Position numbers and translations under genes: made by a program
Part shown: positions 50,645-52,831 of the stretch, piece by piece
Position numbering within the stretch: position 1 is the first letter of the stretch
Layout of the letters: the number at the start of each line of letters is the position of its first letter
The notes under the pieces: model-generated
The model's input: only the letters and a program-made list of their open reading frames with translations
What the model was told of the DNA's origin: nothing
Database searches by the model: none
Assembly: GCA_947372105.1 (NCBI GenBank)
Contig: CANBSH010000006.1
Location: 1 to 64,000 of the forward strand
Reading direction: 5' to 3'
DNA: 64,000 nucleotides
From: Chitinophagaceae bacterium
GTDB taxonomy: Bacteria; Bacteroidota; Bacteroidia; Chitinophagales; Chitinophagaceae

Positions 50645-51565
50645 ATGTCATTAGTAGTTGTTGGATCTATGGCTTTTGATGCCATCGAGACTCCCTTTGG
50701 GAAAAGTGATAAAATTATTGGCGGCGCCGCAACTTACATTGCATGGTGTGCTTCCAATTTCACCACTGTAAAACAAATTTCTGTAGTGGGGGGAGACTTT
50801 CCTCAATCTGAATTAGATGCTTTAACAAACAGAGGCGTCATACTAGAAGGAGTGCAAATTAAAAAAGACGAAAAAACATTCTTTTGGAGTGGTAAGTATC
50901 ATTTAGATATGAATACGCGTGATACTATAGACACGCAATTAAATGTATTAGAAAATTTTGAACCCGTAGTTCCTGATAGCTATCAAGATTGTGAAATTTT
51001 GATGTTAGGCAATTTGGTGCCTGCTGTTCAAAGTAGTGTGATTAAGCAAATGAAGAAGCGTCCTAAATTAATCGTTATGGATACGATGAATTTTTGGATG
51101 GAAATTATGATGCCGGATTTATTACACACAATTAGTTTAGTGGATATATTATTAGTGAATGATAGTGAAGCACGTCAATTAAGTGGTGAGTACAGTTTAG
51201 TGAAGGCTGCTAAAAAAATTATGGCGATGGGTCCTAAATATTTAATTATTAAAAAAGGAGAACATGGTGCTTTGTTGTTCCATGAAAACGAAGTGTTCTT
51301 TGCGCCAGCATTACCATTAGAGGAAGTGTTTGATCCAACCGGTGCTGGAGATACTTTTGCAGGAGGGTTTGTAGCGCACTTAGCCAAAACAAAGGATTTT
51401 TCATTCAATAATATGAAGTCTGCAATCATTGTGGGCAGTGCCTTAGCTAGCTTTTGCGTAGAAAAATTTGGCACTCAAAGATTAACTGAAATAAATGCAG
51501 CTGATATTAAAGAGCGCATACAATCGTTTGTTCAGTTAGTTAATTTTGATATTGAATTAGTGTAA
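50645..51565 (+). CDS. PfkB-family carbohydrate kinase
   Basis: A 306-residue ribokinase-like kinase when started at ATG 50645 (MSLVVVGSMAFDAIETPFG). The catalytic aspartate and oxyanion hole are in DPTGAGDTFAGGFVAHL, and the N-terminal GGAATYIAWCASNF segment is the sugar-binding side. The frame is open from TTG 50579, but the promoter lies inside that extension. Substrate is not predictable; the family includes ribokinase and adenosine kinase, and this type has a conserved DTMNFWM motif of unknown role. Single gene, divergent from tetR. Confidence 0.9.
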   Translation: MSLVVVGSMAFDAIETPFGKSDKIIGGAATYIAWCASNFTTVKQISVVGGDFPQSELDALTNRGVILEGVQIKKDEKTFFWSGKYHLDMNTRDTIDTQLNVLENFEPVVPDSYQDCEILMLGNLVPAVQSSVIKQMKKRPKLIVMDTMNFWMEIMMPDLLHTISLVDILLVNDSEARQLSGEYSLVKAAKKIMAMGPKYLIIKKGEHGALLFHENEVFFAPALPLEEVFDPTGAGDTFAGGFVAHLAKTKDFSFNNMKSAIIVGSALASFCVEKFGTQRLTEINAADIKERIQSFVQLVNFDIELV

Positions 51566-51566
51566 A

Positions 51567-51598
51567 TTTGGTGGAATGTCTCATTCCAATTATTTTTG
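51567..51598 (+). promoter_or_regulatory. asd promoter with an inverted repeat between -33 and -7
   Basis: TTTG (51567-51570) and TATTTTTG (51591-51598) are 20 bases apart, a full match to the Bacteroidota promoter. Between them lies the perfect inverted repeat TGGAATG-TCT-CATTCCA (51572-51588), either an operator or a weak terminator for the kinase gene. Confidence 0.65.
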
Positions 51599-51633
51599 CC
51601 AAGGCGAATTGTTAAAACGAAAAACAAGAAAAG

Positions 51634-51678
51634 ATGAATTTATATAAACATACCAAACAAATCAAGAAACCTATCTAA
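51634..51678 (+). CDS. Candidate leader peptide of the asd attenuator
   Basis: A 14-codon frame ATG to TAA encoding MNLYKHTKQIKKPI. It lies about 30 bases after the predicted transcript start and before a terminator. It contains four lysines, one threonine and two isoleucines, all made from aspartate semialdehyde, the product of the next gene. The antiterminator GGAAGG (51680-51685) begins two bases after its stop, so a ribosome at the stop would cover it. Not proven to be translated. Confidence 0.55.
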   Translation: MNLYKHTKQIKKPI

Positions 51679-51679
51679 A

Positions 51680-51749
51680 GGAAGGTGTGTTTGCATGTAT
51701 GTTTCAAAATATATTCAAAGCCTTCCGAAATTAACGGAGGGCTTTTTTT
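51680..51749 (+). terminator. Terminator/antiterminator (attenuator) before asd
   Basis: Terminator: AAAGCCTTCCG (51717-51727) pairs with CGGAGGGCTTT (51735-51745), loop of 7, then T's to 51749. The alternative partner GGAAGG at 51680-51685 is exactly complementary to CCTTCC (51721-51726) in the 5' arm of the terminator. It lies 84 bases before asd. Confidence 0.7.
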
Positions 51750-51832
51750 ATAGCTAGAATCAATAAAAAAATAAAGCAAAAAGTAATAGAGCAAAAAGAA
51801 ATAAAGCTTAGTAAAATATAAAAAAGAAAAAT

Positions 51833-52831
51833 ATGAAAGTTGCAGTAGTAGGTGCTACCGGTTTAGTGGGTACAAAAATGTTACAAGTATTAGCGGAAAG
51901 AAATTTTCCTATAACGGAATTAGTGCCTGTGGCATCGGCAAGATCTGCAGGGAAAGAGGTTTCTTTTAAAGGAAAAAATTACAAAGTGGTTACTATGGAA
52001 CAAGGTATTGCAGCAAAACCTGCAGTGGCATTATTTTCAGCAGGGGGTAGCACTTCCTTGGAGTGGGCGCCTCAATTTGCAGCGGCAGGTATTCGTGTTA
52101 TTGATAATTCATCTGCATGGCGTATGGATCCTACTAAAAAACTAGTGGTACCAGAAGTGAATGCAAGTGTGTTAACTGCAGAGGATTTAATTATTGCTAA
52201 TCCTAACTGTTCTACCATTCAAATGGTCGTGGCATTACAACCATTACATGCGAAATATAAGATCAAAAGAGTAGTGGTGAGTACTTACCAAAGTGTAACG
52301 GGTACTGGGAAAAAAGCAGTGGATCAATTGTTCAATGAAAGAGGAGGAACCGAAATAGAAGCCAACGATATGGCCTATAAATATCAAATTGATTTAAATG
52401 TAATCCCGCAAATTGATGTGTTTTTAGAAAATGGCTATACTAAAGAGGAAATGAAGATGGTGAAAGAAACTTGCAAAATTATGCAGGATGATTCCATTAA
52501 AGTAACGGCGACAACGGTTCGTATTCCTGTTGTGGGAGGTCATAGTGAATCAGTGAATATTGAATTTGAAAACGAATTTGATTTAGCAGAAGTAACTACA
52601 ATATTAACGAATGCGCCAGGTATCATTGTTCAACAAGACGATGCCACACAATTATATCCCATGCCTTTATGGGCGCATGAAAAAGATGAAGTTTTTGTAG
52701 GACGTTTACGTCGTGATGAAACACAATCTAAAACTTTAAACATGTGGATTGTGAGTGATAACTTACGTAAAGGGGCTGCGACCAATGCCATTCAGATTGC
52801 TGAATATTTAATGGAGAAGGGGATTATTTAA
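51833..52831 (+). CDS. asd: Aspartate-semialdehyde dehydrogenase
   Basis: A 332-residue NADPH enzyme converting aspartyl phosphate to aspartate semialdehyde, the branch point to lysine (and diaminopimelate), threonine, methionine and isoleucine. NADP loop VGATGLVGTKMLQVL at the N terminus; the catalytic cysteine is C126 in ANPNCSTIQM; the catalytic histidine is in VVGGHSESVNI. Length is typical. The leader has a promoter, a Lys-rich peptide and a terminator that suggest attenuation (see findings). It is monocistronic; ligA converges from the other side. Confidence 0.97.
   Translation: MKVAVVGATGLVGTKMLQVLAERNFPITELVPVASARSAGKEVSFKGKNYKVVTMEQGIAAKPAVALFSAGGSTSLEWAPQFAAAGIRVIDNSSAWRMDPTKKLVVPEVNASVLTAEDLIIANPNCSTIQMVVALQPLHAKYKIKRVVVSTYQSVTGTGKKAVDQLFNERGGTEIEANDMAYKYQIDLNVIPQIDVFLENGYTKEEMKMVKETCKIMQDDSIKVTATTVRIPVVGGHSESVNIEFENEFDLAEVTTILTNAPGIIVQQDDATQLYPMPLWAHEKDEVFVGRLRRDETQSKTLNMWIVSDNLRKGAATNAIQIAEYLMEKGII

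Follow-up and report, generated by a model that had tools for sequence, protein, structure and literature searches.

The window, the 64,000-nucleotide stretch of DNA from a Chitinophagaceae bacterium analysed here, contains an asd gene preceded by a pfkB-family kinase gene. The interval between the two genes holds a promoter, a 14-codon reading frame, a GGAAGG motif and an 11-bp terminator that includes CCTTCC (Table 1). All of these elements, which the initial annotation had described, are present by direct reading. The RNA spanning positions 51606-51750 folds with a predicted energy of -31.9 kcal/mol, compared to -19.1 (sd 3.1) in 200 shuffles, none of which folds as well (z -4.1). After its first Met, the encoded peptide has Lys, Thr, Ile, Asn or Met at 8 of 13 residues, a share matched by only 0.3% of 1488 background short frames from the fetched asd loci. 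The inverted repeat between the two promoter boxes could mark the end of the upstream kinase transcript or serve as an operator.

Table 1. Features of the asd leader region, with positions in the window.
Feature	Position	Strand	Remarks
pfkB-family kinase gene	ends at 51565		upstream neighbour
-33 element TTTG	51567-51570	+	adjoins the stop codon of the upstream pfkB-family gene
TGGAATGTCTCATTCCA inverted repeat	51572-51588		between the -33 and -7 boxes; terminator-like by scan
-7 element TATTTTTG	51591-51598	+	spaced N20 from TTTG
Predicted transcription start	~51603	+	by the rule of 4-5 nt past the -7 box
Leader peptide frame MNLYKHTKQIKKPI and stop	51634-51678	+	ATG at 51634, 14 codons, TAA at 51676-51678
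Regulatory codon block KHTKQIKK	51646-51669	+	first 14 nt double as region 1
Region 1	first 14 nt of 51646-51669	+	able to pair with region 2
GGAAGG	51680-51685	+	separated from the stop by one base
Region 2	51680-51700	+	GGAAGGU and downstream arms; predicted antiterminator 5' side
Region 3	51709-51726	+	includes CAAA and GCCUUCC; predicted antiterminator 3' side; its end doubles as the terminator 5' arm
CCTTCC	51721-51726		within the terminator stem
Intrinsic terminator	51717-51749	+	11-bp stem at 51717-51745, 7-nt loop, T run
asd (aspartate-semialdehyde dehydrogenase)	51833-52831	+	putative controlled gene; Pfam; equivalog asd_B

The survey began model-free, with a reading of the upstream regions of 80 asd loci in named genomes (L002-L032 by eye, the remainder by script). 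The same layout occurs in 15 of these loci (L002, L003, L004, L005, L007-L012, L014, L018, L020, L026 and L029), whose titles name Chitinophagaceae, Chitinophagales, Flavihumibacter, Limnovirga or Parafilimonas, or merely a class or phylum. Among the same 80 loci, the layout is absent from four titled Chitinophagaceae or Chitinophaga (L006, L032, L066 and L080) and from those of Sphingobacterium, Pedobacter, Mucilaginibacter and Cytophagales. Within the window's genus, a model-free search found the leader at 25 of 30 asd loci (the window and L082-L110). At the five loci without it (L082, L083, L093, L100 and L103), asd immediately follows the pfkB-family kinase gene and the leader has been lost.

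We built a covariance model, R1, from 21 leaders, leaving out the 3' arm of the terminator. At an E value of 0.01, R1 matches 184 of 294 genomes of the family, representing 72 of 101 genera; 110 genomes (84 of the 249 good assemblies) gave no match at this threshold. The asd site is the only match in the window's genome, where the next best hit has an E value of 0.36. Across 298 genomes of the order, R1 returned five additional matches outside the family. These matches are weak (E 0.004-0.009) and are followed by neither asd nor dapA in the next 1200 nt, so we make no claim for the leader beyond the family.

Of the 150 fetched model hits, 14 lacked asd or dapA downstream and were dropped before counting. 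One of these is cut by a contig end (L268), one is a hisG leader (L269), one precedes a thioesterase-superfamily gene (L270), and the other 11 include the five matches outside the family. The analysed set contains 168 leaders (154 before asd and 14 before dapA; 165 unique by core) from 118 genomes, named ones aside, which is short of the 184 genomes that match; loci L225-L258 do not enter the counts. Thirty-nine leaders were found through asd alone and form a model-free subset. The other 129 were found via R1, so the similarity of their codon blocks is partly a result of selection. Removing three near-duplicates (L130, L161 and L191) leaves 165 leaders (151 asd and 14 dapA) and does not change the reading. 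The comparison with relatives proposed in the initial annotation came out in its favour: an ATG-to-stop frame is present in 166 of 168 leaders (163 of 165 without near-duplicates) and a terminator in all 168.

Promoter elements accompany most of these frames. The -33/-7 consensus is given as TTTG/TANNTTTG in PMC6847099, which also places the Flavobacterium johnsoniae transcription start 4 or 5 nt past the -7 box. In 144 of 166 leaders, a -7 box (TAHHTT[TC]G) lies a short distance ahead of the peptide block, compared to 6 expected from shuffles; the search range excludes the window's own box. TTTG stands at the proper spacing in 127 of the 144. The box is likewise found in 31 of 38 model-free leaders and in 141 of 163 leaders once near-duplicates are removed. 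With the start set 4 nt past the box, the predicted 5' UTR is 2-5 nt long in 124 of 144 leaders (122 of 141 without near-duplicates); the window is exceptional, with a predicted 5' UTR of ~31 nt. Few transcripts of the phylum have UTRs this short, to judge by the available figures of 5.5% leaderless transcripts in F. psychrophilum and ~3.7% with a 5' UTR below 10 nt in B. thetaiotaomicron.

Several observations indicate that the frame is real, conserved and very probably translated. Over the block KHTKRTKK, 131 asd leaders deviate from the majority 61, 132 and 298 times at the first, second and third codon positions, respectively. Of the 493 AAN codons at the four Lys positions, 491 have a purine as their third base (A 304, G 187, T 2, C 0). 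The model-free subset (34 leaders) shows 10, 41 and 61 deviations and third bases of A 109, G 22 and T 1. The frame is thus conserved at the coding level and its codons specify pathway end products, as is characteristic of an attenuator leader. Block position 2 is a conserved His codon that matches no Asd end product.

The initial annotation had cautioned that lysine richness might partly reflect AT bias. For Lys this caution falls away, as the Lys count per leader is independent of locus GC (Spearman 0.01, n=152). Thr rises slightly with locus GC (Spearman 0.16), and the combined Lys/Thr/Ile/Asn/Met share drops (Spearman -0.35). The mean combined share is 0.60 in leaders versus 0.26 in the background frames, and six or more Lys plus Thr codons occur in 128 of 152 asd leaders versus 1.9% of background frames.

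The region downstream of the block is predicted to adopt two mutually exclusive folds. Where the initial annotation allowed the antiterminator only 6 bp, the predicted fold in the window combines a 7-bp GGAAGGU:GCCUUCC helix, a 4-bp UUUG:CAAA helix and a 6-bp inner stem. Its computed energy is -21.2 kcal/mol, compared to -19.4 for the terminator hairpin alone (25 C). The position of the stop codon falls into two classes: counted between first bases, the stop either precedes GGAAGG by 1-6 nt or follows it by 6-16 nt. A terminating ribosome assumed to occupy -15 to +12 relative to the stop codon would cover GGAAGG in 165 of 166 leaders (38 of 38 model-free; 162 of 163 without near-duplicates).

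We modelled stalling by folding the RNA at 25 C with a ribosome footprint reaching 12 nt past the first A-site codon base, and counted as antiterminator any state in which the terminator 5' arm pairs upstream. Across 155 leaders, the mean antiterminator probability is 0.92 at block positions 1-7 and 0.91 at position 8, then falls to 0.78, 0.50 and 0.27 past the block and to 0.17 at the stop. For the model-free subset (35 leaders) it is 0.86 at both position 4 and position 8, falling to 0.16 at the stop. The window follows the same course, with 0.87-0.88 from codon 2 to Lys12, 0.55 at Pro13, 0.23 at Ile14 and 0.11 at the stop; in both the window and the family, the regulatory block therefore ends about where masking is predicted to begin. 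The same calculation for E. coli thrL gives 1.00 through codon 15, 0.75 at 16, 0.21 at 17 and 0.00 at the stop. The folds thus agree with the proposal in the initial annotation that GGAAGG would be free when a ribosome stalls at Lys, Thr or Ile codons and masked when it reaches the stop.

Once the complete terminator is transcribed, the computed equilibrium favours the terminator (mean 0.71-0.99; window 1.00), so the switch would have to be kinetic. In the folding model this shows that the order of formation matters. The preference is no objection to an attenuator reading, since the known E. coli thrL attenuator behaves likewise. A region 1:2 helix, which in an attenuator would favour termination when the frame goes untranslated, is predicted in the free leader RNA. 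Covariation is seen among the 53 leaders whose region 1 is unusual: pairing with the leader's own partner averages 5.94 bp versus 5.15 with random partners (200 draws, maximum 5.57). Untranslated leader RNA still favours the antiterminator in this calculation (mean 0.75; window 0.60).

Comparative evidence for the 2:3 pairing is modest. RNAalifold on the MAFFT alignment A1 returned a 6-pair terminator core and no antiterminator, because the terminator is out of register by one base in A1 and RNAalifold yields a single structure. Regions were then anchored by script through similarity to GGAAGG and CCTTCC, a procedure that misplaces two GGGGC/GCCCC leaders (L003 and L099) that are in fact complementary and are counted with broken pairs. 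Pairing is kept in 969 of 1008 cells, compared to a mean of 959.3 and a maximum of 963 in 2000 partner shuffles that ignore the relatedness of leaders. Double changes that keep the pair number 11 (shuffle mean 1.1, maximum 5). Without near-duplicates, 951 of 990 cells are paired (shuffle maximum 948) and 10 double changes remain (maximum 5), of which 9 are identical, at the first pair, and 5 come from genus g47. The 39 model-free leaders show no excess (222 of 234 cells; shuffle mean 221.1, maximum 223), because nearly all of them share identical GGAAGG and CCTTCC. The GGAAGG/CCTTCC pairing expected by the initial annotation is conserved in relatives, and covariation is not apparent in the model-free leaders.

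Taken together, the conserved frame and terminator, the purine-ending Lys codons, the stop-codon geometry and the competing folds support the reading that the window leader is a classical ribosome-mediated transcription attenuator, to which we assign a probability of about 90%. RNA polymerase would start at the predicted site and transcribe the peptide frame. A shortage of charged tRNA for Lys or Thr, or for Ile in the window, would stall a ribosome in codons 5-12, where it would cover region 1 and leave GGAAGG and the following arms free. The 2:3 antiterminator could then form before the terminator 3' arm is made, and polymerase would continue into asd. If charged tRNAs were plentiful, the ribosome would reach the stop and cover GGAAGG, region 3 would be left free, and the terminator would form and end transcription ~80 nt before asd. 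The parts of this scheme that we infer are the stalling, the coupling between ribosome and polymerase, and the response to the supply of amino acids. Points against the reading are the conserved His codon at block position 2, the 110 family genomes that gave no match, the five same-genus loci that lack the leader, and the antiterminator preference of untranslated RNA.

Aspartate semialdehyde, the product of Asd, is the point from which the routes to Lys, Thr, Met and Ile diverge, and dapA encodes the committed step to lysine. Since the Asd intermediate is common to all four amino acids, the asd leader would sample several end products. Position 6 of the block in the 131 asd leaders is Thr in 78, Ile in 32, Asn in 14, Lys in 2 and Met in 1 (127 of 131), with the rest being Ser (2), Val (1) and Glu (1). 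We also identified the leader before dapA in 15 fetched cases (L145, L148, L150, L152, L193, L211, L259-L262, L265-L267, L280 and L283; 14 distinct), one of which was verified as equivalog dapA. Ten of the 14 dapA leaders align; at position 6 they have Val (8) or Ser (2), and the Lys codons are kept. Four dapA leaders of genus g47 are without any Thr, and the asd leader of the compared genome (G083) has two.

Both leaders could be read in 11 genomes. Thr codons are fewer before dapA in 8 of these genomes and equal in 3; the Fisher test ignores relatedness, and the dapA leaders come from few genera. Lys codons are similar in the two leaders except in one genome (6 and 3, G161). This recoding between asd and dapA leaders is, at the sequence level, a prediction of codon-specific sensing, and the presence of both leaders in the same genomes provides a natural codon-swap experiment on the amino acid sensed. 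Thr at position 3 falls short of proving Thr sensing: aligned dapA leaders keep Thr there too, and the position-3 ACA also serves 1:2 pairing, which weakens any inference from that position. Position 6 is the better witness.

Three other readings of the leader were weighed. A TnaC-like nascent peptide might halt the ribosome by acting in the exit tunnel together with free lysine or another metabolite, rather than through tRNA shortage. Many leaders of the window's genus are near-fixed (14 residues, K[HN][TI]K..KKP[LRIS], then stop), which is more than codon sensing needs. Across the family, however, peptide length as called ranges from 13 to 28 residues (mostly 14 and 18-21) and endings vary (e.g. 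PL, HS, QFS, EGV, EGA and GEG), so that no conserved residues are found at a fixed distance from the C-terminus. The stop also shifts by ~15 nt relative to GGAAGG, which fixed-residue arrest could not tolerate, and the residues of dapA leaders change in step with the pathway. We therefore consider arrest by the peptide itself very unlikely.

The terminator might instead end a separate short transcript, a small RNA or small protein gene, with asd having its own promoter. The leader alone would give an RNA of ~145 nt, and leader-derived RNAs can act in trans, as described for S. meliloti rnTrpL (PMC7298713). Only 1 of 154 asd leaders has a -7 box between the terminator and asd. The promoter pattern misses 22 of 166 leader promoters, so a missing match is not a missing promoter, but an absence in 153 of 154 suggests that asd depends on read-through of the terminator. 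The unit moreover precedes asd in 104 of the 110 first-fetched hits and dapA in the remaining 6. Separate transcription of the leader is thus highly improbable, and the leader RNA may have an additional trans role beside attenuation. A ligand- or tRNA-binding leader RNA (a lysine riboswitch, T-box or new aptamer) with an incidental short frame has a negligible chance of being correct: a stable region 1:2 helix in free RNA would suit it, but Rfam gave no match at gathering score across the whole window, the 7 sub-threshold matches at 51560-51840 (E up to 1) include neither the T-box nor the lysine riboswitch, and the third-base changes in Lys codons, like the placement of the stop, argue for a translated frame.

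The ribosome-mediated attenuator reading extends to a second gene in the same genome. On contig C8, hisG (L302) is preceded by a leader, MNVKNHTHHHHFLSIR, and a terminator, with the leader ATG 4 nt past a TAAATTTG box. We identified His-rich frames before hisG in 27 of 30 fetched family loci, drawn from 33 genomes matching among 40. In 11 of the 27, the script called a -7 box at most 12 nt from the ATG. The hisG leader probably belongs to the same attenuator class and would serve as a positive control within the same genome.

It is possible, though short of probable, that these leaders represent a modular chassis in Chitinophagaceae-type bacteria: a near-leaderless frame behind a TTTG/TAnnTTTG promoter, codons that supply CATAC for pairing with GTATG, a region-2 motif at the stop and a terminator. 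Recoding would re-target this chassis: hisG would be preceded by runs of His codons, dapA by Lys codons, and asd by a mixed Lys/Thr/Ile/Asn block that would work as an OR gate over several end products of a single branch-point enzyme.

In the window's genome, no leader was found before dapA, which starts ~23 nt behind another gene, or before the thrA fusion. This fused aspartokinase-homoserine dehydrogenase (contig C49, L303) lies directly behind a threonine dehydratase gene, and the thr genes therefore seem tied to an ilv operon.

The leader belongs to a class that is already known. The E. coli thr leader is a known attenuator. Like the Chitinophagaceae leader, thrL precedes an aspartate-family operon, carries codons for more than one amino acid (Thr and Ile; Lynn 1987, listed in PMC7041290), has an intrinsic terminator with a competing antiterminator and shows the same computed folding switch. 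The two differ in that Lys codons dominate in the Chitinophagaceae leader and in the genes served (asd and dapA versus thrABC). thrL is also described as having an efficient ribosome-binding site (PMC7041290), whereas the Chitinophagaceae frames mostly lie 2-5 nt from the predicted start; Bacteroidota mRNAs are described as being without Shine-Dalgarno sequences (PMC6847099).

Sinorhizobium meliloti trpL is similar in encoding a 14-residue leader on a leaderless transcript that starts at the ATG (PMC7298713; PMC10117765), and differs in its Trp codons and its alphaproteobacterial host. The short S. meliloti frame SEP5 is translated, contains six Thr codons and three for Lys, precedes a gene the authors call aspartate dehydrogenase and is suggested to encode a leader peptide (PMC10117765). 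According to the same source, SEP5 is conserved in Sinorhizobium only.

A 2010 survey stated that leader-peptide systems were previously known only in Proteobacteria and Actinobacteria, atypical ermC aside, and added a Firmicutes case of its own (PMC2965389). A 2021 study of Flavobacterium psychrophilum, of the same phylum and another family, reported 'strong clues' that operons for amino-acid biosynthesis are attenuated by leader peptides, in passages that give no gene names (PMC9723704). The top-ranked literature that we searched, whose scope did not include the 2010 Lopatovskaya review (cited in PMC4833913), yielded no asd or dapA leader peptide in Bacteroidota. As far as these searches show, the novelty lies in the lineage, in the genes, in a Lys-rich form ahead of dapA and in the recoding between paired leaders. 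The leader adds a family-wide, testable candidate aspartate-pathway attenuator for Bacteroidota. Attenuation implies that translation runs close behind transcription, and the leader could thus be used to test coupling in this phylum.

Leader-like sequences were also observed elsewhere. The dropped hit before the thioesterase-superfamily gene (L270, G138:C152:890-990, minus strand) consists of a leader-like MSTIYTHTNCWKKHRYSEGYGIY and a strong terminator. In flavobacterial loci, we considered the terminators before asd as attenuators and rejected them, as most lie behind a gene end judged by eye to be mscL. Two Polaribacter loci (L040 and L043) contain Lys/Ile-rich frames, MMKISIIKSQKKKEKELSMAT and MKISITKSQNLKKHKLSMVA, ~290 and ~260 nt before asd, each followed by a long terminator ahead of the gene. 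These are possibly an independent asd attenuator in Flavobacteriaceae.
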